Of a DNA stretch of 64,000 bases, positions 7,672 through 64,000 are shown one piece after another. The stretch is taken from positions 1 through 64,000 of the forward strand of contig NZ_JAVFJK010000002.1 in assembly GCF_030908215.1 (NCBI RefSeq). Direction: 5' to 3'. Below the pieces are notes generated by a model. It was not told the DNA's origin, did not search any database, and saw only the letters and a list, made by a program, of their open reading frames with translations. The stretch comes from Sinomonas sp. ASV486 (GTDB taxonomy: Bacteria; Actinomycetota; Actinomycetes; Actinomycetales; Micrococcaceae). Position numbers and translations under genes: made by a program. Positions within the stretch are counted from its first letter, which is position 1. Each line of letters opens with the position of its first letter.

Positions 7672-8160
7672 TCAGCGGGCCTCGCGACCCAGAACCTCGC
7701 GACCCAAGACTTCCTTGAGCCGCGGGACAATCCTACCGCCCCAGCCGCCGCCCATGATCCGGCGTGCCATCTGGTCACCGGAGTGACCCGCACGGTAGCC
7801 GGCCTGGACCACGGTAAGGCGAGTGCCGCCGTCGTGCGCCTCGAGCCGGAAGGTGACGGTCGTCGCCATGTCGTTTTCCTCCGAATCGTCCGCCCACGAG
7901 ATGACGAGCAGCTCGGGTTCGCGGAGCTCGAGGACCTCGCACGCGATGACCCCGGAGAAGCGGGTCGGGGGAATGGGCTCGGTGCTGAAGTGGAAGCGGT
8001 GGCCGACGACGGGCGCGAAGTCGTTGGGCATGAGCCACTCCGCGAGGAGCTCCGGCGTGGTGAGGGCGCGCCAGACGGCAGCCGGCGGCTCGGCGAGGAA
8101 GTCCACTACGCGTACTTCGGTGGGGTTCTCAGCGCTTGCGGCGTCAATCGTGTCAGTCAT
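7672..8160 (-). CDS. SRPBCC (AHSA1-like) domain protein
   Basis: A 162-residue START/Bet v1-like protein of the AHSA1 type. It shows the VWRALTTPELLAEW entry helix, a central FSGVIACEVLELREPELLV strand pair and GGTRLTVVQAGY near the C-terminus. Such proteins bind small hydrophobic molecules; the ligand is unknown. Its ATG lies inside the end of the upstream ArsR gene (8-base overlap), so the two are translationally coupled. A copy of the recurrent 12-base word lies at 7827-7838, read here as AHDG. Confidence 0.85.
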   Translation of the reverse strand: MTDTIDAASAENPTEVRVVDFLAEPPAAVWRALTTPELLAEWLMPNDFAPVVGHRFHFSTEPIPPTRFSGVIACEVLELREPELLVISWADDSEENDMATTVTFRLEAHDGGTRLTVVQAGYRAGHSGDQMARRIMGGGWGGRIVPRLKEVLGREVLGREAR

Positions 8161-8506
8161 AGTCCTTGTCCTTGTCCTTGTCCTTCTGCAGGAGAGCTGC
8201 AAGGCGCGGGACCCGCCCACGCCAGAACTGCTCGTAGGGTTCGAGCCACACGCGTAGGAGCCGGAGCGGCTCGGGGGTGAGGGAGTAGTAGCGATGGCGG
8301 CCGGCCTGCCGCTCGTCGACGAGTCCGACGCCGCGCAGCACCTTGAGGTGTTCGGCGACGCTCGGGCGGGCCATCTCGTAGCGGTCCGCGAGCGCCTGCG
8401 CAGTCTGCGCACCGTCGAGGAGCGCGGCGAGGAGATCCCTGCGCACGGGGTGCGCGAGCGCCGCGAACACATGGTCCGTGGGGGTCTCCTTGCTCTGGCG
8501 GGGCAT
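8153..8506 (-). CDS. ArsR-family transcriptional regulator
   Basis: A 117-residue winged-helix repressor. ALAHPVRRDLLAALLDG, the recognition helix MARPSVAEHLKVLRGVGL and the wing GRHRYYSL follow the ArsR order. There are no metal-binding cysteines, so it is the ligand/partner type often paired with SRPBCC proteins. The C-terminus is KDKDKDKDYD, coded by four AAGGAC repeats. The promoter contains a palindrome and the mRNA appears leaderless, so autoregulation is likely. Confidence 0.9.
   Translation of the reverse strand: MPRQSKETPTDHVFAALAHPVRRDLLAALLDGAQTAQALADRYEMARPSVAEHLKVLRGVGLVDERQAGRHRYYSLTPEPLRLLRVWLEPYEQFWRGRVPRLAALLQKDKDKDKDYD
8162..8185 (-). repeat. four-copy hexamer repeat of Shine-Dalgarno cores
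   Basis: Four tandem GTCCTT units on the plus strand, read on the minus strand as AAGGAC x4, end two bases upstream of the SRPBCC start codon. They encode the lysine-aspartate tail of ArsR, and every unit holds an AAGGA ribosome-binding core for the next gene. Confidence 0.75.
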
Positions 8507-8512
8507 GAGTCG

Positions 8513-8542
8513 ACATTACGTAGGAAAAAACCTACACGTCAA
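8513..8542 (-). promoter_or_regulatory. leaderless ArsR promoter with operator in the spacer
   Basis: Minus strand: TTGACG (8537-8542), an 18-base spacer, TAATGT (8513-8518), then six bases to the ATG. The spacer holds the palindrome GTAGG-N6-CCTAC (8520-8535). Transcription would start at or next to the ATG. The geometry is identical to that upstream of the ArsR gene at 53.6 kb. Confidence 0.65.
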
Positions 8543-8589
8543 GGTCTTGCGCCCGGCCATCGACGGGCGGAATAGATCGGCCCCTTGCT

Positions 8590-8607
8590 TAGTTGTAACT
8601 TCAAGTA
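8590..8607. promoter_or_regulatory. putative MarR-like operator
   Basis: TAGTTG-N6-CAAGTA, an imperfect inverted repeat about 40 bases upstream of the dinucleotide-binding protein gene. It matches the perfect site TAGTTG-N6-CAACTA at 30037-30054. Confidence 0.4.
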
Positions 8608-8646
8608 AGGGCCGAGAAGGCCCGCCCGACGACGAAAGCCCGAGCA

Positions 8647-9330: not shown

Positions 9331-9358
9331 GCCTCCCCGCACAACGCCAGGCCCGGCA

Positions 9359-9391
9359 GGCGGCCCGCCAGATCTGATCTGGCCGGCCGCC
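9359..9391. terminator. bidirectional terminator
   Basis: A 15-bp stem with one mismatch and a three-base loop (arms 9359-9373 and 9377-9391) between two convergent genes. Confidence 0.7.
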
Positions 9392-9437
9392 TTCCGCGTG
9401 TCCTGCCGTCTACCCCCCTCTGTTGTCTTCCTGCCGT

Positions 9438-9923: not shown

Positions 9924-10041
9924 GGCGCCAGTCAAGCAGTCCATGCCGAATCCGGAAAGCGAGCGCAGGCGCGGAACCGGCGTCGTGCGCCGCAGAGTCG
10001 GACGCTGGTCGGTGATTCGCTGCGGTGGCTATCGTGGGCGC

Positions 10042-10782: not shown

Positions 10783-10785
10783 GCC

Positions 10786-10812
10786 TACCCGCCAGTAGGT
10801 ACTCGGAGTACC
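10786..10812. promoter_or_regulatory. two overlapping palindromes upstream of acyl-CoA dehydrogenase
   Basis: TACC-N8-GGTA (10786-10801) overlaps a perfect 15-bp palindrome GGTACTCGGAGTACC (10798-10812). Their shape is typical of TetR-type operators; the regulator is not in the neighbourhood. Confidence 0.5.
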
Positions 10813-10873
10813 ATGAAAAAAGAGCTCAAGGGTCACCGGCCCGCGGCGGCCCCGGGATGCGAAGGGAACCGCC

Positions 10874-12922: not shown

Positions 12923-13000
12923 GCCCGGCGCGGGCACACCGCACCCCGGGCACACGACGCGGCAGAACCACCGGGGCTTGCCCGCGTCATGACGCCCGGC

Positions 13001-14657: not shown

Positions 14658-15650
14658 TCAGGCGAGCGGCCCGGACGACGCCGACCGCTCGCCGTCGTGC
14701 GCGGTCTCGCCTTTCTCCGGCTCGCCGATCACCCACTCGAAGGCGCGGGCGCGGGACCTGGCGCCCTGGGCAGTTCGCGATCGGTTCGGCTCGTCGAGGT
14801 CGGCGAGGAGCGACTCCGACATTCGGACGAGCTGGCCCAGCGTTTCCGGCGTGAACCAGTCAGGGCGTGTTGCGAAGAGGATGTCCTCGCTGGAGGTGTT
14901 GCCGCTCGCGCCCGGCGCGAACGGACACCCGCCCAGGCCACCGAGCGCGCCGTCGACCATCGTGACGCCCGCCTGGATCGCGGCAAGAGTGTTGGCCACG
15001 CCCAGCCCCCACGTGTCGTGTCCGTGGTAGACGATCTCGCGCTCCGGAGTCTCGTCCCGAACGCGCGAGATCAGGGCAGAGACCTGGGCGGGGACGGCCT
15101 GGCCGAGGGTGTCGCAGATGACAATCCCCTGGGCGCCCTCGGTCCTGGGGTCGTTGGCGATCGCGATGACCCTCTCCGGCGCCACCGGGCCGTCGAACGG
15201 GCAGGTGAAGGATGTTGCGATGCACAGCTCGACGGCCGCGCCCGCCTCTCTCGCAAAGCCGATCGCGGCCGGCATCGCCTCAAGGCTCGCGTCCGTGGTG
15301 CGGCCGATGTTCGCCTGGTTGTGGGCGTCCGTGGCCGAGAAGCAGTACTGCAGATTCCGGGCGCCTGCCTCGAGGGCGAGCTCGACGTGCTTGGGCGTCG
15401 CGACCCACAGCCAGCACGCGGCGAGCTCGTCGGGCGTGAGCGAGCGCACGACGTCGAGCGTATTCGCCATCGGCGGGACCTTGTCCGGCCTGGCCAGCGA
15501 GCCGATCTCGAGTGCCGGGACGCCGAGCCCGAGGAGCCTGCGCACGATCTCGACCTTCCGGTCCGTGGGCAGCAGCTTCCCCGTGAGCTGGAGGCCGTCG
15601 CGGAGCGTCACGTCCCGCAGGCGGGCGGCGGGGGCAAAGGAGTCGGTCAT
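14658..15650 (-). CDS. hydroxymethylglutaryl-CoA lyase family enzyme
   Basis: A 330-residue TIM-barrel aldolase of the DRE-TIM family. RDVTLRDGLQ near the N-terminus, HGHDTWGLGVAN and the GCPFAPGASGN loop with the conserved cysteine identify the HMG-CoA-lyase branch. It would cleave a 3-hydroxy-3-methylacyl-CoA to acetyl-CoA (or another acyl-CoA) plus a keto acid. Its ATG overlaps the CoA-transferase stop by four bases. It is the last gene of the ABC-importer operon. The C-terminal tail ends GETAHDGERSASSGPLA and contains the 12-base word at 14690-14701. Confidence 0.9.
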   Translation of the reverse strand: MTDSFAPAARLRDVTLRDGLQLTGKLLPTDRKVEIVRRLLGLGVPALEIGSLARPDKVPPMANTLDVVRSLTPDELAACWLWVATPKHVELALEAGARNLQYCFSATDAHNQANIGRTTDASLEAMPAAIGFAREAGAAVELCIATSFTCPFDGPVAPERVIAIANDPRTEGAQGIVICDTLGQAVPAQVSALISRVRDETPEREIVYHGHDTWGLGVANTLAAIQAGVTMVDGALGGLGGCPFAPGASGNTSSEDILFATRPDWFTPETLGQLVRMSESLLADLDEPNRSRTAQGARSRARAFEWVIGEPEKGETAHDGERSASSGPLA

Positions 15651-31575: not shown

Positions 31576-31619
31576 TCACAGATCGTAGTGGATGGAATGC
31601 CTCTTGAAAGGCTCACAAG

Positions 31620-31675
31620 GGATGAATCATCCAACGACTCGAGCTGCGGCTGTCCCTACTGTGGTCTCAACCACA
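31620..31675. promoter_or_regulatory. palindromes between pucR and the aminotransferase operon
   Basis: GGATGA-A-TCATCC (31620-31632) and TGTGGT-CTCA-ACCACA (31660-31675) are perfect inverted repeats. Two further ACCAC half-sites follow within 31690-31710. Candidate PucR binding sites. Confidence 0.5.
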
Positions 31676-31719
31676 CGCTCAGCCTCGACCACACCGTTTT
31701 CAACCACGGGGGAGAACCC

Positions 31720-33183
31720 ATGACCGTCACGACCGATACCGCCGTCGTCGCACCTGCCGACGTCCCGCAGCGCGCGCGCCGCCTCGCGACCGCCCTGCCC
31801 GGACCGCGCTCCCGCGAGCTTGAGGCCGAGCGCCGCCGCCACGTCACCGAGGGCTTCGGCGTGACGCTGCCGGTGTTCATCGACCGCGCCGAGGGCTCGC
31901 TGCTCGTCGACGTCGACGGGAATCGCATCATCGACTTCGCCTCCGGCATCGCTGTGACAAGCGTGGGCGCCGCGAACCCACGGGTGGCGGAGCGCGCCGC
32001 CGCGCAGCTGTCCCGGTTCACGCACACGTGCTTCATGGTCACCGAGTACTCCTCGTTCACCGAGGTCTGCGCATGGCTCAACGAGCACACGCCGGGCAGC
32101 TTCGAGAAGCGCACCGCCCTCTTCTCGACGGGCGCGGAGGCCGTCGAGAACGCGATCAAGATCGCCCGCTCGGCGACCCGGCGGCCCAACGTCCTCGTCT
32201 TCGACGAGGCCTACCACGGCCGCACCCAGCTCACGATGGCGATGACGGCCAAGGAGAACCCGTACAGCCTGAACTTCGGCCCGCTCCCGGGCTCGGTCTT
32301 CCGAGGCCCGACGGCGCCCGCGCATCTCGTGCCTTCGGGTGATTCAGGAGCGTTCGTCGCCCAGGCCCTGGCCGGCGTCGAGTCCGTCCTGGCAGAGGCG
32401 GGCGCCGAGACATTCGCGGCGATGGTCATCGAGCCGATCCAGGGCGAGGGCGGCTTCATCGTCCCCGCGGCCAGCTTCCTCTCCGGGCTCCGAGAGATTG
32501 CGACGCAGCACGGGATCGTCCTCGTGATCGACGAGATCCAGGCCGGGATGGGCCGGACGGGAGCCCTCTTCGCGTCCGAGCACGAAGGCATCGCCGGGGA
32601 CATCACCCTCTCCGCGAAGGCCCTCGGGGCCGGGCTTCCGCTCTCAGCCGTGACGGGCCGCGCTGAGCTCATGAACGCCGTCCACACGGGCGGCCTCGGC
32701 GGCACCTACGCGGGCAATCCCGTTGCGTGCGAGGCCGCGCTCGCCGTCTTCGAACTCCTCGAGGACGGCTCGCTCCTCGCCGGCGCGCAGCGCATCGAGG
32801 CGGCCGTGAGGGAGCGCTTCGAGCCGCTGCTCGCCCCTGGCGCGCACGACGGCGCGGGGCCCGCGTCCGGGCAGGCCTCACCTGCTGGGATCATGGGGGT
32901 CTCCGCCGAGAGCCCTGCCTCCACTGGCACCGCCCGCGCCGGCGTCGTCTCCGTGCGCGGACGGGGCGCCATGATGGCCATCGAGTTCGCGGACGCCTCA
33001 GGCCCGCGCGCCGATGTCGCGAAGGCTGCGGCGGCCGCCGCGAACGCCGCCGGCGTCCTGACGCTCACCTGCGGCACGCACGGCAACGTCATCCGGCTCC
33101 TGCCGCCACTCGGCATCGAAGCCGAGGTACTGGAGGAAGGGCTCGAGGTGCTCGAGGCCGCCATCCGCGGGGCCCTCTCGTGA
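31720..33183 (+). CDS. gabT: 4-aminobutyrate/5-aminovalerate aminotransferase
   Basis: A 487-residue class III PLP-dependent omega-aminotransferase. FSTGAEAVENAIKIARSAT binds the cofactor phosphate, VLVIDEIQAGMGRTG holds the conserved Asp, and the Schiff-base lysine is about residue 300 in LSAKALGAGLPLSAVTGR. The operon context (CoA-transferase, glutaryl-CoA dehydrogenase, semialdehyde dehydrogenase) favours 5-aminovalerate (DavT role) over GABA. A 35-residue low-complexity insertion after FEPLLAP, beginning GAHDGAG, is unusual and holds the 12-base word. The ribosome site is GGGGGAGAACCC. Confidence 0.9.
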   Translation: MTVTTDTAVVAPADVPQRARRLATALPGPRSRELEAERRRHVTEGFGVTLPVFIDRAEGSLLVDVDGNRIIDFASGIAVTSVGAANPRVAERAAAQLSRFTHTCFMVTEYSSFTEVCAWLNEHTPGSFEKRTALFSTGAEAVENAIKIARSATRRPNVLVFDEAYHGRTQLTMAMTAKENPYSLNFGPLPGSVFRGPTAPAHLVPSGDSGAFVAQALAGVESVLAEAGAETFAAMVIEPIQGEGGFIVPAASFLSGLREIATQHGIVLVIDEIQAGMGRTGALFASEHEGIAGDITLSAKALGAGLPLSAVTGRAELMNAVHTGGLGGTYAGNPVACEAALAVFELLEDGSLLAGAQRIEAAVRERFEPLLAPGAHDGAGPASGQASPAGIMGVSAESPASTGTARAGVVSVRGRGAMMAIEFADASGPRADVAKAAAAAANAAGVLTLTCGTHGNVIRLLPPLGIEAEVLEEGLEVLEAAIRGALS

Positions 33184-35997: not shown

Positions 35998-37607
35998 GCG
36001 CGGGTACCGTCACCGAGCACGACGACGCTCTGGTCGCCCCGCTCGGCGGTGTAATCTCAGCCGCCAGCTCTCCCGTCCCGCTGCGTCTCCTCATCGGCGG
36101 CGAGTGGCTGATGGGCGACGGCGCGCCGCTCGCCTCGCGCAACCCGGCGCGCCCCGACGAGGTGGTGGCGGAGGGCACCCAGGCCGTCGTGGCCGACGTC
36201 AACCGCGCCATGCGTGCTGCCCGCGCCGCAGCCCGCGAGTGGTCCCGGACCCCGATCCACGAGCGGGGCGCCGTCCTGGCCCGCGCGGCCGCGGCCCTCG
36301 AGGCGCGCGCGGGGCAGCTCGGGCTAGAGCTGGCGCGCGAGGAGGGCAAGACCCTCGCCGAGGGCACGGGCGAGGTAATGCGCGCGGCGCAGATCCTCCG
36401 CTACTACGCCGCCGAGGGCGATCGTTCCGCCGGGGAGCACTTCGCGTCCCCGCGCCGCGGCGAGCGGATCCTCGTGACGCGCAAGCCGCTCGGCGTCGTC
36501 GGCATTGTCACGCCGTTCAACTTCCCCATCGCGATCCCGGCGTGGAAGATCGCGCCGGCACTCGTGTACGGAAATGCGGTGGTATGGAAGCCGGCCTCGA
36601 CCGTCCCGCTGCTCGCGATGCGCCTCGCGGAGGCGCTCGCGGACGCATTGGCAGAGGCCGGGCTGCCCGCCGGAGTGCTCAACCTGATCATCGGACCCGG
36701 GGCCCTCGGCACAGAGCTCGTGCGGCATCCGGATCTCGACGGGCTTTCATTCACCGGCTCGACCGGCGTGGGCCGGATGCTCGCGGGCGAGGCGGCCTCG
36801 CGCGGCGTCCCGTTCCAAGGCGAGATGGGCGGGAAGAACGCCGCGATCGTGCTCGCCGACGCCGATCTCGACCTCGCCGCCGAGCAGGTCCTCTTCGGGG
36901 CCTTCCGCTCGACCGGGCAGAAATGCACCGCGACGTCCCGGCTCATCGTGGTCGAGGAGATCGCGGACGCGTTCCTCGCGAAGCTCGCCGCGCGGCTCGA
37001 CGCCTGGCGTGTCGGCAATCCGAGCGACCCGGCCGTGCATATGGGTCCGCTCGTCACCGCAGCGGCCGCGGCGGGCGTGCGTGACGCGGTCGCCACGGCC
37101 GAGCGCGAGGGCGCACGTGTCGCGTACCGGGGCCAGGCTCCGGAAGCCGCGACGCACGACGGCGGGGCCGCACCTTCCGCGTTCGTCCCGGCGACGATCC
37201 TCGAGATCCCGGGCGAGGCAGCGGGAGTCGGCGACGCGGCGTCGTCCACCGACTCCGCCGGCGCCCCCGATACCGCCGCCGCGCCAGCCAACATCGCCTG
37301 GCGCGAGGAGCTGTTCGGCCCAGTGCTCGCGGTGCGGCGCGCCGCGTCGACCGAGGAGGCCTTCGCCCTCGCGGAGGACTCCGAGTTCGGCCTGACGGCA
37401 GCACTGTTCACCCGCGACATCGCCACTGCGCTCGACGCTGTGGACACGCTCGACGTCGGCATCCTCCACGTCAACTCCGAGTCCGCCGGCGCGGACCCGC
37501 ACGTCCCGTTCGGCGGCGCGAAGAAGTCGGGCTACGGGCCCAAGGAGCAGGGCGGAGCAGCGAAGGAGTTCTTCACCCACACCACGACGGTGTACCTGCG
37601 GGGCTGA
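35994..37607 (+). CDS. aldehyde dehydrogenase, probable glutarate/succinate semialdehyde dehydrogenase
   Basis: A 537-residue NAD(P)-dependent aldehyde dehydrogenase. GVVGIVTPFNFPIAIPAWKI, FTGSTGVGRMLAG, the general-base region QGEMGGKNAAIVLAD and nucleophile FRSTGQKCTATSRL are all present. Position suggests oxidation of glutarate semialdehyde (DavD role). A disordered insertion with ATHDGG and GDAASSTDSAGAPDTAAAPAN lies before the C-terminal WREELFGPVLAV and includes a 12-base word copy at 37153-37164. GTG start coupled to the dehydrogenase stop. Last gene of the operon. Confidence 0.9.
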   Translation: MSAGTVTEHDDALVAPLGGVISAASSPVPLRLLIGGEWLMGDGAPLASRNPARPDEVVAEGTQAVVADVNRAMRAARAAAREWSRTPIHERGAVLARAAAALEARAGQLGLELAREEGKTLAEGTGEVMRAAQILRYYAAEGDRSAGEHFASPRRGERILVTRKPLGVVGIVTPFNFPIAIPAWKIAPALVYGNAVVWKPASTVPLLAMRLAEALADALAEAGLPAGVLNLIIGPGALGTELVRHPDLDGLSFTGSTGVGRMLAGEAASRGVPFQGEMGGKNAAIVLADADLDLAAEQVLFGAFRSTGQKCTATSRLIVVEEIADAFLAKLAARLDAWRVGNPSDPAVHMGPLVTAAAAAGVRDAVATAEREGARVAYRGQAPEAATHDGGAAPSAFVPATILEIPGEAAGVGDAASSTDSAGAPDTAAAPANIAWREELFGPVLAVRRAASTEEAFALAEDSEFGLTAALFTRDIATALDAVDTLDVGILHVNSESAGADPHVPFGGAKKSGYGPKEQGGAAKEFFTHTTTVYLRG

Positions 37608-45486: not shown

Positions 45487-47259
45487 TCAGAAGGGCGGCG
45501 GTTTGGGCTCACCGGGGGTGGTGACGTGGGTGCGGCCCAGGGGAGACGTCCACGTGATCGTGCCGCCGTGCGAACCCTGTTCCGCGTTCCACACACCAAT
45601 CGTCTTGAGTCGATGGTGTTCGGGGCACAAGAGTGCGAGATTGGTCAGCTCTGTGCTGCCGCCCCGTGCCCATTCGAGGGTGTGGTCCACTTCGGTGTGC
45701 GCGGAGGGGCGATCGCACGCCGGGAAACGGCAGTTCGCATCCCGAAGCACGATTTGTCTTCGGAGCACGGGCGGCGGGGTATATCGGCTTCGCCCGAGGG
45801 CCAGAGGCTCGCCCGTGTCCGGGTCGGCGAGCATGCGCAGCCACGTGCTGGCTCGGGCGGCGAGGCGTCGAGCCGCCGCCGCGGAGATGAGCCCATAGCC
45901 GAGGATCTCGCCGGGCTCGCGGTCGAACGCGACCTCCCACGCCTCCTCAGCACGGGCCGCGCGTGATGCTCCGTCAGGATCGGCCTCGCGTGATGCCTCT
46001 TCAACACCGGCCCCGCGTGGTCCCTCCTCAACACCGGCCTCGGGCGGCTGACGCCGGCGGACCACCGGCACCACGGTGGCCAATGGAACGGTGACCACGA
46101 GCTCGGTGCGCACTCCTCCTCGCGGGGACGGCGCACCTCCACCCGCATCGGGACCGGTGAGGGCGAGGAGAAGGGCGGTGAAGGCGTCGAGACGGGCCTG
46201 CGTGACCGTGCGGGGGTCGTCGGCGGGCTGGTTGCGCGCAATCGCCTGAAGACGGGTGTCGATCGCCGCCCCATCTTCCAGCGGAAGCCAGGCGGAGAGA
46301 TGGCACATGCCGTCGTCAGCGGGCTCGATGTCGACCCGACGATGATCACGCGCAATGCGTGCCCGTTCCTCGAACGTCTCGGACGAGTACTTCTGAGCCA
46401 GCCGGCGTACGGCACACTGAAGGGCAGGCAGTGAAGGGAGCGGCCCGTCCTCGCCGCCAGCCACCGCAAGTGCCACCGCGCGCGTCATGAATTCCAAGGT
46501 TGCGGACACCGGAACAGCCACGGCCGCCCGCAGGATGGTCTGAGCGCGAGGACGATCCAGCTCGCCATCGTCCATCGCGGCGAGGAGCGGTGCGGCGTAG
46601 GTCTCGGTCAGGGCCAGACACTCGGCCACGAGCGCTCTCGCGGCCCGCGGAGGCAGGGACAGCTCGGCGGCGACCTCCGCCGCGGCCAGTGACGGAGCTT
46701 GGACGCGCTCGTGGGGATCCTCGGACTCTGCGCCCAGCAGGATGGCGATCCGACGGACGTCCCGGGCCCGATCAGCGTGAATCTGGGCCTCGGTGGCCTG
46801 ATGCCGGGACAGCCCGCCCACGAGCATCTCGACCCGCCGGACGCGCAGTTCGGCCCGGAGCGCGGCCGGAGGGAGCTCCTCGGCCAGCGCGGGATCGACC
46901 GCCGCCGGGTCGAGGCTCTCGGGACCGAACCCGGTCACGTCGCGTCCGTTGGCATCAACAACCGTGTAGAGCGCCCCGGCCTCCTCGAGATCCGCCACAT
47001 CGAAGCCCTCGGAGCCGCGCTCCTCGAGCCCGGCGGCCGTCCGCGCCGCGGGAATCCGCGCCTCAGAAGTCTGCGCCTCCGCCTCCGCGGCCCACTCATC
47101 GAAGTCCGCGCGCCCCGGATCTGCCGCCGGATCGTCGAGGTATGAAGGCCACGGGTACGCGCTCGCCCATGAATCCTCGGGAACGGGCCCGAGCGCGGGT
47201 GCGCCGACATTGCGCGGCGACCACCCGCCGTCGTGCGCCGAACCCGTGAACCTGTCCAT
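45487..47259 (-). CDS. DUF222 / HNH endonuclease domain protein
   Basis: About 590 residues of the DUF222-HNH family (REP13E12-like), abundant in actinobacteria. The DUF222 part includes ARALVAECLALTETYAAPLL and MCHLSAWLPLEDGAAIDTRL. The C-terminal HNH has DANCRFPACD, HTEVDHTLEW and LALLCPEHHRLKT, with zinc cysteines and the catalytic histidine. An acidic repeat-like insertion (GVEEGPRGAGVEEA) splits DUF222 from HNH. Start 47259 (MDRFTGSAHDGG) chosen; 47307 is possible. A 12-base word copy lies at 47226-47237. Role unproved; possibly mobile-element derived. Confidence 0.88.
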   Translation of the reverse strand: MDRFTGSAHDGGWSPRNVGAPALGPVPEDSWASAYPWPSYLDDPAADPGRADFDEWAAEAEAQTSEARIPAARTAAGLEERGSEGFDVADLEEAGALYTVVDANGRDVTGFGPESLDPAAVDPALAEELPPAALRAELRVRRVEMLVGGLSRHQATEAQIHADRARDVRRIAILLGAESEDPHERVQAPSLAAAEVAAELSLPPRAARALVAECLALTETYAAPLLAAMDDGELDRPRAQTILRAAVAVPVSATLEFMTRAVALAVAGGEDGPLPSLPALQCAVRRLAQKYSSETFEERARIARDHRRVDIEPADDGMCHLSAWLPLEDGAAIDTRLQAIARNQPADDPRTVTQARLDAFTALLLALTGPDAGGGAPSPRGGVRTELVVTVPLATVVPVVRRRQPPEAGVEEGPRGAGVEEASREADPDGASRAARAEEAWEVAFDREPGEILGYGLISAAAARRLAARASTWLRMLADPDTGEPLALGRSRYTPPPVLRRQIVLRDANCRFPACDRPSAHTEVDHTLEWARGGSTELTNLALLCPEHHRLKTIGVWNAEQGSHGGTITWTSPLGRTHVTTPGEPKPPPF

Positions 47260-49959: not shown

Positions 49960-50486
49960 GAACACGAGCAGCAATCTCAGCCTCCCTCGCCTCCCTCGGC
50001 ATCCTCGCCGTCGGCTGGCAGGCCGGAGCCCAGGCCCTCGAAGCGCAGGCAACCGCCGGCGGGGCCGCAGGGACGACAGGCACGACGGGAACCACCGGAA
50101 GCACGACGGCGTCCGGCACCTCGGGCGCGTCCGGCACCTCGGGCTCCGCCTCTTCGGGGACCTCGTCCGGCACGAGCGCGAGCCAGACGACCGGCTCTCA
50201 GGCCAAGGCCCAGACGACGTATGCCGGGAAGGCCGTCTCGACCAGGTTCGGAAATGTCCAGGTGCAGATCACCGTCCAGAGCGGCAAGATTACCGAGGTC
50301 ACGGCCCTCCACCTCACCGACGCGGAGATGAGGTCGCAGATGATCAGCGCCACGGCCGCTCCGATCCTGCGCTCCGAGGTGCTGCAGGCACAGTCGGCAA
50401 ACGTCCAGACCGTCAGCGGGGCAACCATCACCTCCGATGCCTACCTGACCTCCCTCCAGGCGGCCCTCGATGCAGCCCATCTCTGA
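49956..50486 (+). CDS. secreted FMN-binding domain protein
   Basis: A 176-residue protein with an N-terminal export signal (MRTRAAISASLASLGILAVG), a long Thr/Ser/Gly linker and one FMN-binding domain. VSGATITSDAYLTSLQAAL holds the S/T-GAT-x-T motif that receives covalent FMN from ApbE. Its start overlaps the reductase stop and its end overlaps apbE by 17 bases. So it is likely flavinylated by the next gene product and reduced by the previous one. Confidence 0.9.
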   Translation: MRTRAAISASLASLGILAVGWQAGAQALEAQATAGGAAGTTGTTGTTGSTTASGTSGASGTSGSASSGTSSGTSASQTTGSQAKAQTTYAGKAVSTRFGNVQVQITVQSGKITEVTALHLTDAEMRSQMISATAAPILRSEVLQAQSANVQTVSGATITSDAYLTSLQAALDAAHL

Positions 50487-51621
50487 TCCCACGCCCGTGC
50501 AGGCTCCCGGCGAGCCGTCCCTCCCCGGTTCCGGAGAGCCCGCCCTGCAGGCCAGGACGTTCGTGTGCATGGGGACGGTCGTGAGCCTCACGATCCCCGT
50601 GGGGGCCGGTGCAGCGGATGCAGGCTCGGCTGTTCGTCCTGTGCTGTCAGGCGACACCGACACGGGTTCTAAGGCTTCTACCGCCGGCTCTGCCGCCGCG
50701 CGCGACGCGCAGGCCGTCGTCGACCGGCTCGAAGCGGCCACAGCCGTCGTCGAGGACCAGTTCGCCGGCCTCGACGCGCAGTTCAGCCTCTACAAGCCCA
50801 CCTCAGAGGCGAGCCGGATCGCGCGCGGTGAGCTCTCGCTCATGGAAGCGAGTCCGCTCATGCGGGACCTGTATGCGGACGCCATCCGCTGGCGGCGGCG
50901 CACCGATGGTGCGTTCACGCCCGAGCGGCCGGACGGGCTCCTGGACCTCAGCGGACTCGTCAAGGGCTATGCGATCGCCGAGGCGGGGCGGTCCCTCGCG
51001 GCCCTCGGCCTCACGGACTGGTGCCTCAACGCGGGTGGGGACGTGCTCGTGTCCGGCTCGCCGACACCTCGACCGCCGATCTCCCGGGACGGCGGGCCAC
51101 GCGGGGGCGCTGGGGCCTCCGCGTGGCTCGCGGGAATCGTGGACCCAGGGGATAGGCGCACACTCCTGGGCGCCTACCCGCTGGGTGGAACGGGGGCGGC
51201 CCCGGACTCGGTCATGGACGCGGTCATGGGCGCGGCCCCAGGCATGGGAACCAGCCCCGCGGTGTCCGGCCGCGCGCTGTCCGGCCGCGCGCTGTCCGGC
51301 CGCGCGCTGTCCGGCCGCGCAGTGTCCGGCCGCGCGCCGCGGCTGGCCCTCGCGACATCTGGCTCGGCCGAGCGCGGCGACCACATCTGGACGGTCGGCA
51401 TCCGCCGCGCTGGAGGCGGCGCCCAGCGCCCGGACTTCGTCCAGGTGAGCGTCGCGGCGTCGGACGTCGTCACGGCCGATGTCCTGGCCACCGCCATCGT
51501 GGCCGGCGGCCGCGCGACCCTCGATACCGTCACCGCCCGCTGGGACGTGGACGTGCTCGTCGTCACGCACGACGGCGCGCTGCTCGCCACGCCTGGATTC
51601 CGCGCCCCGAGCGCGGCGTAG
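50470..51621 (+). CDS. apbE: FAD:protein FMN transferase (ApbE)
   Basis: A 383-residue ApbE. DLSGLVKGYAIAEAG, WCLNAGGDVLVSG, RLALATSGSAERGDHIW and the metal-binding DVVTADVLATAIVAGG are in family order. It attaches FMN to threonine of the FMN-binding domain encoded just upstream. Two loops are expanded: VRPVLSGDTDTGSKASTAGS and the five-copy SGRAL repeat. No clear export signal. The end carries a 12-base word copy (51566-51577) within VVTHDGALLAT. Confidence 0.9.
   Translation: MQPISDPTPVQAPGEPSLPGSGEPALQARTFVCMGTVVSLTIPVGAGAADAGSAVRPVLSGDTDTGSKASTAGSAAARDAQAVVDRLEAATAVVEDQFAGLDAQFSLYKPTSEASRIARGELSLMEASPLMRDLYADAIRWRRRTDGAFTPERPDGLLDLSGLVKGYAIAEAGRSLAALGLTDWCLNAGGDVLVSGSPTPRPPISRDGGPRGGAGASAWLAGIVDPGDRRTLLGAYPLGGTGAAPDSVMDAVMGAAPGMGTSPAVSGRALSGRALSGRALSGRAVSGRAPRLALATSGSAERGDHIWTVGIRRAGGGAQRPDFVQVSVAASDVVTADVLATAIVAGGRATLDTVTARWDVDVLVVTHDGALLATPGFRAPSAA
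51263..51337 (+). repeat. five-copy 15-bp tandem repeat in apbE
   Basis: Five near-identical units of about TGTCCGGCCGCGCGC encode SGRAL x3, SGRAV and SGRAP in a loop of ApbE. In-frame, so copy number could vary without frameshift. Confidence 0.85.
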
Positions 51622-54131: not shown

Positions 54132-54899
54132 CTACAGGCGGGTGAGGATGGGGTACTTCGGGCTCAGGCCGTCGCCCGAGGAGCGGCCCGTGAGCCGGCG
54201 CATGACCCAGGGCCCCGCGAACTCGCGGACCCACACGGCATTGGCCCTCAGCTGCTCAACACGGCTGAGGACGGGCAGCTCCGGCATCTCTGGGACGTCG
54301 GCGAGGCCCTCGTGCTCGAGGACGCTGAGTACCCGGTTGGCCATCGTCGCGTGGCCGAGGGAGGACATGTGCATGCGGTCGGTGTCTCACATGCGCCAGT
54401 CCTGGAATTCATGGAACCGCCAGTAGTCAACCAGCGCTGCGCCGTGGCGCTCGGCGATCCAGCGGACCTGCTCGTTGTAGATCGCGGTCCGTCCGCGCAT
54501 GGCTCCGAAGACCTTCGAGGAGCCTGCGTCGAACCCAGTGAAGAGGAGCACGCGGACCCCCGCCCCGACGAGCCGGGCGACCGCCGCGTCGTAGTCCTCC
54601 AGCAGCGCGTCGATGTCTACCTTGTGCCGCAGGATGTCGTTCCCGCCCGCATAGAGCGTCACAAGCGTGGGCCGCAGCGCGAGCGCCGGCTCGATCTGCT
54701 CGGCCAGGATCGCGCGGATCTTGCGTCCGCGGATCGCCAGGTTCGCGTAGCCGGTTGCAGGGTCCGCAGCCTGGAGCTGCTCCGCAACCCGGTCGGCCCA
54801 GCCCCGCACGCCGTTCGGGCGGGACGCGTCCGGATCGCCCACGCCCTCGGTGAACGAGTCGCCCAGAGCCACGAAGCGAGTGGTGAAGTCGACGCTCAC
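54132..54899 (-). pseudogene. SGNH/GDSL hydrolase with in-frame TGA
   Basis: A SGNH-fold esterase that starts with GTG 54899 coupled to the MarR stop: TTRFVALGDSFTEGVGDPDA (nucleophile Ser), YANLAIRGRKI and LYAGGNDIL. At 54387-54389 the frame has TGA where homologues, to my knowledge, read WDTDRMHMS; the frame then continues intact through DTDRMHMSSLGH, which contains the catalytic Asp-x-x-His, to 54132. One base change (TGG to TGA) thus removes the catalytic end. Real nonsense mutation or sequence error. Confidence 0.85.
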
Positions 54900-55543
54900 G
54901 GTGTGGCCTCGCCGTCGTGCGTCTCGGCTTCGGCAGCGGGCGCTGTCGTCCCGGCGGGCGCTGTCGTCCCAGATGTCAGCTCGGCGGCCCCAGCCGGCGC
55001 CGCCCTCCCGGCTGGCTCTGTCGCCCCAGCCTGCGCAGCCTTGGGACGCTCGCCCTCGATCCGGACCTGGTCCCGGAAGATCCAGTGGTCCGCCTGCAGC
55101 TTGCCAACAATCTTCTCCGCGATCTCGGCCAACCGGGCCACGTCCTGCGGGTCGAGGGGGTCGAGGACGATCTGCCGCACCCGCTCCACGTGGTCGGGGG
55201 CGAGGTCCACGATGGTTTCCCACCCGGCGTCGGTCAGATGGGCGGTGGTGACGCGGGCGTCGTCGGGCGAGGGGCGGCGGTCGATCCAGCCGCGTGCCTG
55301 GAGCTTGGTCACAACGTGCGAAAGCCGCGACAGCGACGACGAGGTGCGCGATGCCAGCTCCTTCATCGGGAGCAGACGCCCTTCGGCCTCGGAGAGCATC
55401 GCGAGGACGTTGTAGTCGAACAGGGAGAGCTTGTTCAGCTGGGTCAAGTGGGCATCCAGTGCAGCAGGCAGGAGGGTGCTCACGCTCAACAGGGCCAGCC
55501 AGGCCCGGCGTTCTTCGGCGGTCAGCCAACGGGGTTCCGTCAC
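54896..55543 (-). CDS. MarR-family transcriptional regulator
   Basis: About 215 residues. LSLFDYNVLAMLSEAEGRLL, MKELASRTSSSLSRLSHVVT and GWIDRRPSPDDARVTTAHLT are the MarR winged-helix pattern. The long C-terminal tail (PAGRAAPAGAAELTSGTTAP) is low-complexity and ends AEAETHDGEATP with a 12-base word copy at 54910-54921. GTG 55543 is preferred to TTG 55552. It could read the TAGTTG-N6-CAA sites at 8.6 and 30.0 kb, but that is only a guess. Confidence 0.88.
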   Translation of the reverse strand: MTEPRWLTAEERRAWLALLSVSTLLPAALDAHLTQLNKLSLFDYNVLAMLSEAEGRLLPMKELASRTSSSLSRLSHVVTKLQARGWIDRRPSPDDARVTTAHLTDAGWETIVDLAPDHVERVRQIVLDPLDPQDVARLAEIAEKIVGKLQADHWIFRDQVRIEGERPKAAQAGATEPAGRAAPAGAAELTSGTTAPAGTTAPAAEAETHDGEATP

Positions 55544-55662: not shown

Positions 55663-56985
55663 ATGGCTCCAGGACTCGCCGGCATCGACCACATCGTGGT
55701 CCTCATGCTCGAGAACAGATCGTTCGACCACATGCTCGGCTACCTCTACCACGGCTCGGGAAACGTCTCGCCGAGCGGGGCGCCGTTCGAGGGGCTCACG
55801 GGCACCGAGAGCTGCCCTGGCACAGACGGCAAGCCCGTGCCCGTCTACCCCATCGCCCCGACCACCCCGGACGCGTACTTCATGCCCGGCGCGGACCCGG
55901 GCGAAGGGTTCGCGAAGGCCAACAGCCAGCTCTTCGGGACCACGCAGCCGGCCCCCGGTGCCGCCCCCACGATGACCGGATTCGTCACCGACTACGCCCA
56001 GGCCATCAAGGACAACCAGGCGAAGAAGTGGTACGTGGTCCCGGGAACGGCGCCGAACTGGATCATGGGCTGCTACGCGCCGGACACCCTGCCGGTGCTG
56101 AGCGGGCTCGCGCGCGGATTCGCCGTGTGCGACCACTGGTTCAGCTCCGTGCCTACCGAGACCATGCCGAACCGCGCCTTCACCTGTGCCGGGACGAGCC
56201 AGGGCCACATGGACGACGTCACCAAGTCCTACACCGTCCCCAGCATCTTCGGGCTCCTCGGCCAGCACGGCATCCCGTGGAAGATCTACGGATACAGCAA
56301 GCCGCCGCTCACGCGCCTCAACTTCCCCGACACCCAGAAGGCCCCGGCAGCGAACATCGGCCTATTCAAGGACTTCCAGGCCGACGCTGCGGCGGGGACG
56401 CTCCCGGGTTTCGCCTTCGTGGAACCCAGCTGGAGCTCGACTGGCAACAGCCAGCACCCCAACTACAGCATGGCCGCAGGCGAGCAGCTCATCCTCGACA
56501 CCTACCATGCGCTCCGCTCGGGGCCCGGCTGGGCCAAGACGCTCCTCATCGTCACCTACGACGAGCACGGCGGCTGCTATGACCACGTCCCGCCGCCCTC
56601 GGGTGCCACGCCACCGGACAGCTCCCCAGGCGAGTTCGGCTTCGACTTCACCCGTTTTGGCCCACGTGTGCCCACCGTCCTCGTGAGCCCCCTCATCCCC
56701 GCCGGCACGGTGTTCCGCGTAGCACCGGGGACCACGCCCCTCGATCACACGAGCATCCTCGCCACGGTCGAGCACCGGTTCGGCCTCACGCCGCTCACCC
56801 GCCGGGACGCGGCTGCGCCCGACGTCGGCGCCGCCCTCACGCTGTCTGCCCCCCGCACGGACGACCCCCTCGCCGGCGTCTCCGCACCCACGCAGCCGGC
56901 CCTCCCCGCCGCGCTCGTCGCGACGCCGTCCCACCTCGCCGATGTCCGCGACGAGCTCATGGCGAAGTTCACGCCCGCCGGCTGA
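55663..56985 (+). CDS. phospholipase C / acid phosphatase-like (alkaline phosphatase superfamily)
   Basis: A 440-residue phosphoesterase of the bacterial PLC/AcpA type. The metal and nucleophile motif is LENRSFDHMLGYL near the N-terminus; TYDEHGGCYDHVPPP and LDHTSILATVEHRFG are the later signatures. Family members are usually exported by Tat, but this one has no signal peptide, so it may be cytoplasmic or non-classically located. The ribosome site is GAAGGAACAGCC. Followed by a duplicated 28-mer and a strong terminator. Confidence 0.9.
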   Translation: MAPGLAGIDHIVVLMLENRSFDHMLGYLYHGSGNVSPSGAPFEGLTGTESCPGTDGKPVPVYPIAPTTPDAYFMPGADPGEGFAKANSQLFGTTQPAPGAAPTMTGFVTDYAQAIKDNQAKKWYVVPGTAPNWIMGCYAPDTLPVLSGLARGFAVCDHWFSSVPTETMPNRAFTCAGTSQGHMDDVTKSYTVPSIFGLLGQHGIPWKIYGYSKPPLTRLNFPDTQKAPAANIGLFKDFQADAAAGTLPGFAFVEPSWSSTGNSQHPNYSMAAGEQLILDTYHALRSGPGWAKTLLIVTYDEHGGCYDHVPPPSGATPPDSSPGEFGFDFTRFGPRVPTVLVSPLIPAGTVFRVAPGTTPLDHTSILATVEHRFGLTPLTRRDAAAPDVGAALTLSAPRTDDPLAGVSAPTQPALPAALVATPSHLADVRDELMAKFTPAG

Positions 56986-57005: not shown

Positions 57006-57061
57006 GGGGTCACTGACAGGCGAGGCGCGGAGCGGGGTCACCGACGGGCGAGGCGCGGAGC
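57006..57061. repeat. 28-bp tandem duplication
   Basis: Units 57006-57033 and 57034-57061 differ at two positions. They lie between the phospholipase stop and its terminator; noncoding. Confidence 0.8.
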
Positions 57062-57090
57062 GGACGACGGCGGGCACGCGCCGTCGTCCG
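57061..57090 (+). terminator. terminator built from the 12-base word
   Basis: Perfect 12-bp stem CGGACGACGGCG / CGCCGTCGTCCG with a six-base loop; flanking GAGGCGCG and CGCGCCTC extend it past a bulge. The arm is one base from the recurrent CGCACGACGGCG. Confidence 0.75.
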
Positions 57091-58963: not shown

Positions 58964-58989
58964 CGGCTCGGACCAGTAGCCTTGTGCCC

Positions 58990-59910: not shown

Positions 59911-59977
59911 TGCGGGGTGCGGGGCCACTCAGACCGGCACTAATCCGACACATGCGCCCGGCCCTCACGCTGCGTGA

Positions 59978-61165
59978 TCAGCTCTGCATCGTGAAGCGCG
60001 CCGCCGTGCGGCCGCCGAGCCAAGGGACGCCGTAGAGCCTGCGGAACGCTGCGTTGCGCGCGGCCATGAGCGGCGGCGGGAGGGCCCTGCCCAGGGTCAT
60101 ATTGACCCCCGCCTGCCGCGCGGCCGCACGCGCCGCACGCAGCCGCTCGCGCTCGGCCGCGGCCCAGAGTTGGGACCAGCCGGAGCCGGAACCACCCCTG
60201 GCACCACCGCCGCTACCGATGGAACCACCGCAATCGAGTCCGGCAGCGATGAGCGGGGCGAAGGCCTCGGCATCGAGCCATCCCAGAGTCATGCCCTGGC
60301 CGCCGATGGGGCTCACCTCATGGGCGGCATCCCCCGCGAGCAGCACGCGCCCGACCACCATCCGTGCCGCAAGCCGCTCCGTGACCGTGAAGGCACTCAG
60401 CATCGTGCACGTGGAAGTGTCGAGGCCCGCGCCGGTCCGCTCCTCGATGATCTGCGCGAGGTCCCTGGCAGAGGGGTCGACGGCCGGCTCGTCCAGATGC
60501 GCCACCCATCGACGTACCCCGCCCGGCAGCGGGAACGATTCGACGATTCCTGCCGCCTCGAGGTGCAGCACGGCGAGCGCGCCGTCGCCCGTCGCGTCCG
60601 CGAAGTCCCCCATGAGGTACGCGTCGCGGAGCGGGTGCCCGTACGTGGGGACGCCGAGGCACGAGCGCAGCGGCGAGCGCGCGCCGTCGGCCGCGACGAC
60701 CCAGCGCCCCGCGTACGTGCCGTCCTCGCAGCGCACGACGGCGCCGCCCTCCGTCTGCTCGGTCCGCACCGCGCGCACGCCGCGGCGGAGGGCACCGGGG
60801 GCGATCGCGGCGAGCCGGGACTCGAGCGCCTCCTCCGTGGCCCACTGCGGCACGGCGAGCACGGGAGGATCGAAATGCAGCCTTGCTATCTCCTCCGTCC
60901 GGCCCGAGGCCCGCGAGCGCGCGACGCCCTCCCCGATCTGCACCCCCTGCGCCACGAGGGCCCCTGCCACGCCGGCCCGCTCCAGGACGCGCAGACCGGG
61001 CGGATGGATGCCGATGGCGCGGGTGTGGCCGAGCCGTTCGGGCCTCGCCTCGAGGACTACGACGTCCGCCCCGTGGAGCGCCAGGAGGATTCCGAAGCAC
61101 ATCCCCACCGGCCCCCCGCCGACGACGACGGCGTCGTGCACCTCGCGCCGGCCGTGCGCCTCCAC
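59978..61165 (-). CDS. FAD-dependent monooxygenase
   Basis: A 395-residue class A flavin monooxygenase. VHDAVVVGGGPVGMCFGILL is the FAD site, WVVAADGARSPLRSCLG the DG motif and VLLAGDAAHEVSPIGGQGM the GD motif. It starts 15 bases downstream of the type III PKS stop, so it probably hydroxylates the polyketide product. A Gly/Ser insertion (GSIGSGGGARGGSGSG) near the C-terminus is unusual. A 12-base word copy at 60732-60743 reads AVVRC here. Confidence 0.9.
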   Translation of the reverse strand: MEAHGRREVHDAVVVGGGPVGMCFGILLALHGADVVVLEARPERLGHTRAIGIHPPGLRVLERAGVAGALVAQGVQIGEGVARSRASGRTEEIARLHFDPPVLAVPQWATEEALESRLAAIAPGALRRGVRAVRTEQTEGGAVVRCEDGTYAGRWVVAADGARSPLRSCLGVPTYGHPLRDAYLMGDFADATGDGALAVLHLEAAGIVESFPLPGGVRRWVAHLDEPAVDPSARDLAQIIEERTGAGLDTSTCTMLSAFTVTERLAARMVVGRVLLAGDAAHEVSPIGGQGMTLGWLDAEAFAPLIAAGLDCGGSIGSGGGARGGSGSGWSQLWAAAERERLRAARAAARQAGVNMTLGRALPPPLMAARNAAFRRLYGVPWLGGRTAARFTMQS

Positions 61166-61180
61166 CCTCCTGCCCCGCCG

Positions 61181-62356: not shown

Positions 62357-62451
62357 GGGCCATTCTTCCCCCGGGAGGGGGTGGAGAAACAAGGGGTCGG
62401 GGGATCCGATCGAAAGCTGTCGGTGGGGCGACCCCAGACGGGAGGCGGCGC

Positions 62452-63585
62452 CTACACCACTCCGGCGGCTTCGAGCTGCGCGGCGAGCCCCGCACCGTCG
62501 GGCGCCGACGCCCACACGACGTCCTGACGGGAGGCGACCGAATCGCCGTCATGCGTCGTGCCCCCGGAGAAGACCGCCTGCCCCGGGGAGAGCTGCCGGA
62601 TGGCGACTGCCCCGACGGAGGCGGGGTGCTCCGCGGCGAACTCGGCGTAGATCGATTCGTCGTGCTGGCCGTTGTCCCCGACGAGGAGCCAGCGGATGTC
62701 CGGGAACTCGGCGGCGAGCCGCTCGAGGTTCTCGCGCTTGTGCTCGCGGCCGGAGCGGAACCAGCGGTCCGGCGTCATGCCCCAGTCTGTGAGCAGGAGG
62801 GGACCGGCCGGGTACAGGTTGCGGCCCAGGAACCGCTGGAGCGTGGGCGCGGAGTTCCACGGCCCGGTCGATAGGTACACGACCGGCGCCTCTGGGTGCT
62901 CGGCGGCGAGCCGGTCCAGCAGGACCGCCATGCCCGGCGTGGGCGTGCGGGCGCGCTCGCTCAGCACGAACGTGTTCCACAGCGCGAGGAACGGGCGCGG
63001 CAGCGCGGTGACCATCACGGTGTCGTCGATGTCCGAGACGATCCCGAACCGTGCCCCTGGCTCGACGATCATCACCTGGGCCACAGACGGCTCGGCGCCC
63101 TCGGCGCTCATCCGCACCTCATGCCATCCCGGCTCGAGCTCGACGTCGACGAGCACATCCACCACGCCGCCGCCATCAGCACGCACGACGGCGCGCGCAC
63201 CCTCGATCTCGACCGTCACCTCCGCATGCTGGATCGGAACAGACGTGAAGGAGACCCACCCGCGGAAGTTGTTGAAGGCGTCCGAATTCCCATGCAGCCC
63301 CGGCCGCGAGTAGAGGACGCGCCCGAGCACACGCACTCGGCGGGTGCTGCCGTAGCCCCGGTACGCCACGACCTGGGCCACATAGTCGCCATGCCGGGCC
63401 TGACGGGTGCGGAGGTCGTTCCACCCCTGTGCGAACCGCCGCGCCACGTGGAAGAGCGGCTTGAGCCGCGGCGTCACGGGGGTGCAGCGGGAGGACGGGC
63501 CGTCCGATGCCGTCCCGCTGGTCGTTGGCCCCGAGTCTTCAGTGCCGCGGGGCGCGTCGACGGCCTGGACCTCCTGCGCTGTCAT
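62452..63585 (-). CDS. App1-like phosphatidate phosphatase (DUF2183)
   Basis: A 377-residue HAD-like protein. An N-terminal beta domain (YVAQVVAYRGYGSTRRVRVL) precedes the catalytic part with FGIVSDIDDTVMVTALPRPF (DxDxT), VYLSTGPWNSAPTLQRFL and LLVGDNGQHDESIYAEFA. The App1 family acts on phosphatidate in fungi; the bacterial substrate is unproved. The same strand as the PKS operon, 95 bases upstream. Word copies at 63182-63193 (AVVRA) and near-copy 62544-62555 (THDG). Confidence 0.87.
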   Translation of the reverse strand: MTAQEVQAVDAPRGTEDSGPTTSGTASDGPSSRCTPVTPRLKPLFHVARRFAQGWNDLRTRQARHGDYVAQVVAYRGYGSTRRVRVLGRVLYSRPGLHGNSDAFNNFRGWVSFTSVPIQHAEVTVEIEGARAVVRADGGGVVDVLVDVELEPGWHEVRMSAEGAEPSVAQVMIVEPGARFGIVSDIDDTVMVTALPRPFLALWNTFVLSERARTPTPGMAVLLDRLAAEHPEAPVVYLSTGPWNSAPTLQRFLGRNLYPAGPLLLTDWGMTPDRWFRSGREHKRENLERLAAEFPDIRWLLVGDNGQHDESIYAEFAAEHPASVGAVAIRQLSPGQAVFSGGTTHDGDSVASRQDVVWASAPDGAGLAAQLEAAGVV

Positions 63586-63705
63586 AGGAACACTCTCCCA
63601 CGAGGGAGGGGCTCAGTTCACATCGGCGCCACAGCGGACTCACAGCATTCCGCGGCCGCACGCTCCGGCGGGCGCCAGGGCAGCCCGCCTGAGGGAAGGC
63701 CTCCG

Positions 63706-64000
63706 TCACGCGCGGGCGAGCTCCTCGATGTCCTCGAGGAAGGCCGCCGCGACCTCCTCGCTCACGGTCGTCTTGGTCTCGGCGATCGCCTCCAGGTAGT
63801 CCTCCGTGGTAGGCCCCCGCCGCCCGTTCGCGGCCCCGGCGTCGGCGGCCAGCTCGCCGTCGTGCGGGGAACCGTGCGCGACGTCGTGGTGGGAGCCGTG
63901 CGCGACGTCGTGCGCGACGCCGCCCTCTAGCTCCGAGGCGTCGCGGTGGAGCGCACCTCCAGCGGCCGCGGACCCCGCGGTGCCGAGCACCGGGACGCGC
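63706..64000 (-). CDS. C-terminal part of a gene running off the window
   Basis: The minus frame is open to the right edge; at least 98 residues including RVPVLGTAG. A repeat-like, His/Asp-rich stretch (VAHDVAHGSHHDVAHGSPHD, with a 12-base word copy at 63855-63866) leads to the conserved-looking tail TTEDYLEAIAETKTTVSEEV and ends IEELARA. I do not recognise the family; the N-terminal part is outside. Confidence 0.6.
   Translation of the reverse strand, partial: RVPVLGTAGSAAAGGALHRDASELEGGVAHDVAHGSHHDVAHGSPHDGELAADAGAANGRRGPTTEDYLEAIAETKTTVSEEVAAAFLEDIEELARA

Follow-up and report, generated by a model that had tools for sequence, protein, structure and literature searches.

A chromosome-wide iterated 12-base DNA word with clade-weighted spellings in Sinomonas, a candidate DNA uptake sequence

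Why does one 12-base word, CGCACGACGGCG, recur ten times in a single 64-kb stretch of an actinobacterial genome? The stretch, hereafter the window, comprises positions 1 to 64,000 of contig NZ_JAVFJK010000002.1 of Sinomonas sp. ASV486 (assembly GCF_030908215.1); we refer to this genome as G000 and to the contig of which the window is a part as C12. A preliminary description of the window had noticed the recurrence and suggested that the word itself is selected, or spreads, as DNA. We find that CGCACGACGGCG, together with its enriched variants, is iterated across the Sinomonas chromosome and maintained as DNA, and we weigh the processes that may maintain it, among which a DNA uptake sequence is our favoured candidate.

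Genome-wide excess of the word

Across the 4.28 Mb of G000, CGCACGACGGCG occurs exactly 498 times (257 forward, 241 reverse), or once per 8.6 kb, compared with nine occurrences (4 and 5) of the reversed word used as a control. In 464 kb of this genome we counted 62 copies where an order-4 Markov model expects 2.2. The 421 genes called in this sample, positioned throughout by a home-made caller without curated annotation, contain 43 of these copies, against a mean of 5.94 after synonymous codon shuffling (the largest of 200 shuffles reached 13) and 1.09 after shuffling of codon order. The genic copies are read as HDG in 20 cases, AVVR in 14, RTTA in 6, RRRA in 2 and AARRR in 1, with 27 in the sense of the gene and 16 opposed to it. 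Furthermore, the HDG tripeptide itself is inflated in the called genes of G000 (48 observed, 15.4 expected), and where it is encoded as CAC GAC GGC, the full word is present in 20 of 35 cases (1.8 expected). The proposal of selection on, or spread of, the word as DNA is thus borne out by the genome count, the Markov excess and the synonymous shuffle, as well as by the orthologue retention and tripeptide shift described below.

Single-base variants of CGCACGACGGCG in G000 delineate a strict core amid tolerant positions. No variant at positions 9, 11 or 12 was in excess, and those at positions 5-8 reached at most five copies each, with C5T (4 versus 0.7 expected) and G6T (2 versus 0.3) lying above expectation. 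Enrichment of 5-13 fold was found for A at position 1, G or T at position 3 and any base at position 10, and of 4-6.5 fold for C or T at position 2. In the HDG frame, variants at the wobble position 11 numbered 1 (1.8 expected), whereas position 10, where a substitution alters the amino acid, had 45 (5.1 expected). Outside the word, strong conservation was seen in no flanking column when copies were compared (at most 0.71 bits).

Within the window, all ten exact copies reported in the preliminary description were recovered in place, five per strand. They are listed here with an inverted pair of the variant CGGACGACGGCG, in which the C at position 3 is replaced by G:

7827..7838, minus strand: exact copy read as AHDG, in called gene 7672-8160 (minus)
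14690..14701, minus strand: exact copy read as AHDG, in the C-terminal tail of called gene 14658-15650 (minus)
32843..32854, plus strand: exact copy read as AHDG, in called gene 30391-33183 (plus)
37153..37164, plus strand: exact copy read as THDG, in called gene 35994-37607 (plus)
47226..47237, minus strand: exact copy read as AHDG, at the N-terminus of called gene 45487-47259 (minus)
51566..51577, plus strand: exact copy read as THDG, near the C-terminus of called gene 50470-51621 (plus)
54910..54921, minus strand: exact copy read as THDG, close to the end of called gene 54896-55483 (minus)
60732..60743, plus strand: exact copy read as AVVR, antisense to called gene 59978-61165 (minus)
63182..63193, plus strand: exact copy read as AVVR, antisense to called gene 62452-63585 (minus)
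63855..63866, minus strand: exact copy read as PHDG, in called gene 63706-63990 (minus)
57061..57090, no strand assigned: inverted pair of two facing CGGACGACGGCG copies around a 6-base loop, a terminator-like hairpin

As had been described, eight of the ten copies encode AHDG, THDG or PHDG on the coding strand. The remaining two, which lie opposite to it, are read as AVVR; the HDG share of copies is lower genome-wide (20/43 genic copies). Four copies fall close to one or the other end of a called gene (codons 317-321 of 330, 366-370 of 383, 188-192 of 195 and 8-12 of 590). The earlier hand estimate of 0.1 copy per window is close to the 0.14-0.17 exact copies expected under Markov orders 1-3, while orders 4 to 6, trained on the window including the word, expect 0.3-1.6. 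Its tally of one-mismatch copies was too low: six were reported and we counted 27. Allowing up to one mismatch, the window holds 37 matches, against a mean of 3.84 and a maximum of 9 in 100 dinucleotide shuffles. As a separate observation, positions 1-5935 contain no exact copy and no typical coding sequence was called there; this segment is possibly atypical or acquired DNA.

Clade spellings and orthologous sites

We counted exact CGCACGACGGCG copies in 15 Sinomonas genomes (43-663 each) and in family and phylum samples drawn evenly from larger groups. Maxima outside the genus were 75 among 280 other genomes of the family, 46 among 245 other genomes of the phylum and 69 among 22 other genomes of the order. 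A moderate excess over the reversed control was common in GC-rich relatives and was not counted as amplification. A two-protein tree of the 15 Sinomonas genomes, rooted at its midpoint, separates clade A (9 genomes) from clade B (6 genomes) with a support of 100/100, and exact copies number 246-663 in clade A and 43-92 in clade B.

The word is written in at least two clade-weighted spellings, CGC (CGCACGACGGCG) being commonest in one clade and CGG (CGGACGACGGCG) in the other. In 500 kb of clade B, sampled as 17.5-133 kb per genome, we found 63 CGG and 8 CGC copies, the smallest sample (G007, 17.5 kb) holding one of each. In 80 kb of another species of the genus (G001), CGGACGACGGCG occurred 18 times, against 0.67 expected, and CGCACGACGGCG once. 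Clade A genomes also carry CGG copies (135-320 in the seven counted), and CGC leads in every one.

The spellings leave a matching imprint on proteins. In clade A, HDG was observed 118 times against 50 expected (2.37-fold) and DDG 162 against 127 (1.28-fold); in clade B, HDG was observed 23 times against 14 (1.63-fold) and DDG 100 against 40 (2.47-fold). The reversed peptides GDH and GDD remained at 0.9-1.2 of expectation, and the small samples of G004 and G008 showed no inflation of HDG. Could the word simply be a by-product of codon or protein composition in a GC-rich genome, with HDG or DDG used repeatedly? The moderate excess in GC-rich relatives speaks for such an artefact, and small samples of other genera show tripeptide excesses of their own (HDG 8 observed versus 2.7 expected in G141; DDG 15 versus 7.5 in G118). 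However, this explanation is contradicted by the synonymous shuffle (5.9 versus 43), by the 19 of 62 copies that are intergenic, by the enrichment of variants at position 10 but not at the glycine wobble position 11, and by the lack of the word on small replicons of similar GC content (see below), and we give it almost no credence.

For 17 copies within C12:44001-124000 we aligned the orthologous sites of relatives, obtaining 76 alignments; the sites at 47226 and 54910 yielded no usable one. Exact words were found in 27 of 51 ungapped alignments to clade A genomes, compared with 13% for nearby 12-mers in the same codon phase. This count leaves aside 16 of the 76 alignments that have a gap in the word (eight from each clade) and 9 ungapped alignments to clade B. 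Over the 60 ungapped alignments of both clades, identity was 0.89 in the word and 0.79 in the flanks. The 12 single differences fell mostly at position 3 (G in five, A in two) and position 1 (T in three), whereas in eight alignments to clade A at least four bases of the word had changed. The site at 51566 is exact in G002, G003, G008 and G012, takes the CGG form in G004 and has other forms in G013, G009, G001, G005, G006 and G007. That at 60732 is exact in G002, G003, G004, G011 and G012 and appears in the CGG form, with unchanged flanks, in G008 and G013. That at 63182 is exact in G003, G011, G012 and G013, and differs by one or two bases in G002, G004, G008 and the same-species genome G058. 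Orthologous sites thus include single C/G swaps within intact flanks. The retention at some sites, together with the gapped and divergent alignments at others, indicates that many sites are old and kept while others were gained or lost.

These alignments also bear on the tiny insertion element, or transposon footprint, that the preliminary description had entertained. Many dispersed identical copies would be expected of such an element, but the flanks show no strong conservation from copy to copy (at most 0.71 bits in any column) and orthologous sites differ mostly by substitutions inside the word, though 16 of the 76 alignments are gapped there. Both features contradict an insertion origin, which we regard as barely conceivable. 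Taken together, the DNA-level and dialect-forming nature of the word is nearly certain.

A weaker form of the same phenomenon may extend past Sinomonas, since the ten-base words GACGACGGCG are enriched in G118 (25 versus 4.7 expected) and G173 (27 versus 4.5). Other iterated words were seen alongside. G173, another family member, carries 156 CGG copies as well as the separate iterated words GTCGAGACCC and AGCCTGTCGAGA. Over-represented 12-mers in positions 1-400000 of contig C1 of G000 and the window include CACACGGGGTGA (17 versus 0.1), GCCAGAGACCCC (16 versus 0.07) and CGAAGTCACCCC (14 versus 0.15), and one in the G003 sample (L087-L106) is CGAGGTCACCCC (23 versus 0.9). The clade B samples (G009, G005, G001) yielded GTACCCGAAACG (7 versus 0.01), CAAGCAACGGCG (6 versus 0.02) and CCAGGGAGTCCG (9 versus 0.01).

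Intergenic copies, hairpins and chromosomal placement

In the 464-kb sample, 19 of 62 copies are intergenic, though non-coding DNA amounts to about 12%. Counting both spellings in samples of G000, G003 and G002, we found 36 copies in 66.5 kb of gaps between tandem genes, 23 in 21.8 kb between convergent genes and 6 in 40.7 kb between divergent genes, a density in convergent gaps seven times that in divergent ones. Moreover, inverted pairs of the word form terminator-like hairpins at the 3' ends of genes. Among 13 core hairpin matches outside genes, 11 were distinct, six lying between convergent and five between tandem genes with none between divergent genes, and all lay 10-78 bp away from the 3' end of a gene; the window's hairpin (57061..57090) follows called gene 55663-56985 (plus), with its core starting 78 bp past the gene's 3' end. 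A further nine matches lay inside called genes and one at an edge. Within genes, the bias to the ends is weak: by decile along the gene, the enriched forms numbered 23, 11, 20, 21, 14, 19, 15, 12, 14 and 22.

Such hairpins raise the alternative that the word is a transcription terminator element, a favoured stem of intrinsic terminators whose single copies are decayed or half terminators. A scan for the perfect inverted pair among named genomes returned 56 stretches, all from Sinomonas, Arthrobacter or Paenarthrobacter, and in the latter two genera A and T tracts often flank the pairs, as in intrinsic terminators. Core hairpins were present in 73 of 120 genomes in an even sample of the family (0-2 per genome for the reversed control); five Sinomonas genomes had 39-63 each, and genus g19 reached 37. 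These counts and the 3'-end location speak for a terminator. Against it, most copies are genic (43/62), and four g19 genomes with 25-37 core hairpins each hold just 38-59 exact copies, which leads us to consider a terminator origin of the word very unlikely. Among the Paenarthrobacter and Arthrobacter loci (L031-L086), hairpins with the same stem have, for example, GGAGGT, GCAGGT or the complement of either as the loop and are frequently accompanied by A/T tracts, and four loci (L053, L057, L081 and L084) carry two such hairpins each, 0.8-3 kb apart.

The word shows no strand polarity of the kind seen in FtsK-orienting polar sequences (KOPS), as had been noted from the window: neighbouring copies share an orientation in 32 of 66 cases, and the window is split 5/5. 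A polar KOPS/FtsK word was therefore rejected. On the chromosome of Sinomonas sp. R1AF57, 27 copies were scored as 'leading' and 22 as 'lagging' (p 0.57) under the assumption that base 1 is the origin, and we set this result aside because base 1 of the record has not been shown to be the origin. The enriched forms (for spacing, C or A at position 1, C or G at position 3 and any base at position 10) occupy one locus per 2.0-2.4 kb and are spread more evenly than random, with coefficients of variation (CV) of 0.82 and 0.80 that were matched by 0.3% and 4% of simulations; 5 of 300 control 8-mers were as even.

The word's occurrence also differed between replicons. We covered 202 kb of small replicons, comprising all 82 kb of G013:C2, 80 of 203 kb of G009:C2 and 40 of 60 kb of G009:C3, and found neither exact spelling in them, against about 25 copies expected at chromosomal density (11 and 13.5 exact copies per 100 kb in chromosome samples of the hosts). 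The core nine-mer ACGACGGCG occurred 20 times, against about 97 expected, and GC content is similar (0.68-0.69 in the small replicons, 0.72 and 0.68 in the chromosomes). G013:C2 is a plasmid with a relaxase, TraG, type I restriction genes, an IS1595-type transposase and an RHS/HINT protein; G009:C2 carries a relaxase in the part covered, and G009:C3, with no plasmid hallmark in five scanned proteins, is assumed to be a plasmid.

Even spread of the enriched forms, lack of polarity, a strict core and absence from the small replicons covered would all suit a site bound by an abundant chromosome-organising or segregation protein, whether nucleoid-associated, Noc-like or similar. Such sites are, however, usually degenerate or set towards the origin or terminus, and our view of position along the chromosome comes from 20 blocks of 20 kb. 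A third-base switch at many sites, with remodelled proteins, would in addition demand strong selection on each site, so that we hold this explanation to be unlikely. A recombination hot spot is a further possibility, in which a Chi-like word would be read by an AddAB, AdnAB or RecBCD-type nuclease-helicase and spread by recombination-driven bias. Chi words vary between bacteria, and a non-palindromic word, acting at the DNA level, missing from the small replicons covered and spelled differently in related clades, would fit. But Chi of E. coli is strand-biased, and the absence of any orientation preference (32/66 neighbours alike) disfavours this explanation; 12 bases is long for Chi, and neither the 3'-end hairpins of inverted pairs nor the scarcity between divergent genes would be accounted for. 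We judge it quite unlikely.

DNA uptake and comparison with known systems

Genomes of the genus encode a potential uptake machinery. ComEC was found in all 26 genomes searched (14/14 Sinomonas, 12/12 others), and in G001, the sole genome examined for it, a ComEA-like protein with SLBB and helix-hairpin-helix domains adjoins ComEC. A Tad/Flp locus lies in G000 at about C1:248482-255733, where Pfam identifies an ATPase, a T2SSF protein, a ParA/CpaE-like ATPase, TadE, a TadG-like protein and one Flp pilin, and where inspection by eye adds another Flp pilin and one more TadC-like gene.

We consider a model in which a DNA receptor on the cell surface, belonging to the Flp/Tad pilus and the ComEA/ComEC competence machinery, would prefer word-bearing DNA. 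Fragments with the word would be taken up and recombined more often, and copies and near-copies would accumulate at permissive places, such as intergenic 3' ends and the loops and tails of proteins. A change in the receptor would shift the preferred third base, and the genome would follow site by site, giving rise to dialects.

Several observations support such a DNA uptake sequence: the copy number, the strand balance, the restricted amplification and a spelling change that matches a supported split of the genus, and further the tripeptides that go with the spelling, the strict core, the tolerant positions, the intergenic excess, the 3'-end hairpins, the more even spacing of the enriched forms, the absence from the small replicons covered, and the competence and Flp/Tad genes, whose counterparts M. 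luteus needs for transformation. Of the options raised in the preliminary description, uptake fits best and a nucleoid site persists as its rival, while the tiny insertion element and a HIP1-like palindrome have fallen away.

A number of points weigh against uptake. ComEC occurs in all 12 non-Sinomonas genomes searched, most of which are word-poor, so that presence of the machinery is no predictor of the word. A Tad ATPase of the strongest type was found in 8 of 13 genomes, and not in G173 despite its 156 CGG copies; the type IV pilin signal PF07963 was detected in none of 13 family genomes, a search that did not extend to Flp- or TadE-type receptors. Exact copies are spaced as random (CV 1.02). 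Like the enriched forms, they are sparser than the DNA uptake sequences of the Neisseriaceae genomes named in PMC3630211 and stay below a yardstick of one per kilobase. The lead of CGC over CGG is narrow in G011 (370/320), G004 (246/204) and G008 (253/208). Absence from the small replicons covered could also arise under the rival explanations, as could the 3'-end preference. Finally, searches of the open-access literature in PubMed Central (PMC) returned no paper linking Sinomonas with natural transformation. Nor did we find there any paper on the word itself, or on uptake sequences in Actinobacteria, Arthrobacter or high-GC Gram-positive bacteria; uptake sequences together with Micrococcus and competence did yield two, one of them PMC6370729. 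On balance, we place the probability that the word is a DNA uptake sequence at about even, and, slightly below even, that of a true Sinomonas system with dialects, operating through the Flp/Tad pilus and representing a separate origin of self-recognition in transformation.

To our knowledge, no such system has been described beyond the Gram-negative Neisseriaceae and Pasteurellaceae. If the word serves uptake, self-recognition in transformation arose a separate time, in a Gram-positive phylum and with another kind of pilus. The clades with two spellings would offer a natural experiment, in which the receptor could be found and one could test whether uptake drive alone remodels proteins and terminators. 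Even if uptake is not the cause, a dialect-forming word that is absent from the plasmids covered and inflates HDG or DDG in the proteins of its host is a sign of some sequence-specific process, as yet unrecognized, among the Micrococcaceae.

How does the word compare with known iterated sequences? The highly iterated palindrome HIP1 of cyanobacteria is a highly iterated short word, a property that CGCACGACGGCG shares; CGCACGACGGCG differs from its own reverse complement, and a HIP1-like palindrome was rejected for this reason. The uptake signal sequences (USS) of Pasteurellaceae carry AT-rich flanking parts, which the Sinomonas word lacks. One study (PMC2346458) reports that 65% of USS in H. 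influenzae lie in open reading frames, compared with about 86% coding, that one orientation is favoured in reading frames and that copies are biased to gene ends. The Sinomonas word likewise occurs both within and between genes (43/62 in genes), whereas its orientation in genes differs weakly (27 same-sense, 16 opposite) and its gene-end bias is weak.

Closer at hand is Micrococcus luteus, which belongs, like Sinomonas, to the Micrococcaceae. Its transformation requires Flp pili and com genes, according to PMC4322843, in whose main text the term 'uptake sequence' is absent. Sinomonas resembles it in possessing ComEC, ComEA-like and Tad/Flp genes.

For the DNA uptake sequences (DUS) of Neisseriaceae, PMC3630211 describes words of 10-12 bp in very high copy (2,245-3,603 in the genomes it names) with an invariant CTG core, dialects that differ by a few bases and follow phylogeny, and intergenic inverted pairs linked to terminators. 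Unlike these, the Sinomonas word belongs to an actinobacterium and has fewer exact copies, and PF07963 was not found, ComP not having been sought by name. Like DUS, it occurs on both strands, has a strict core and dialects that follow phylogeny, and forms terminator-like inverted pairs at the 3' ends of genes.

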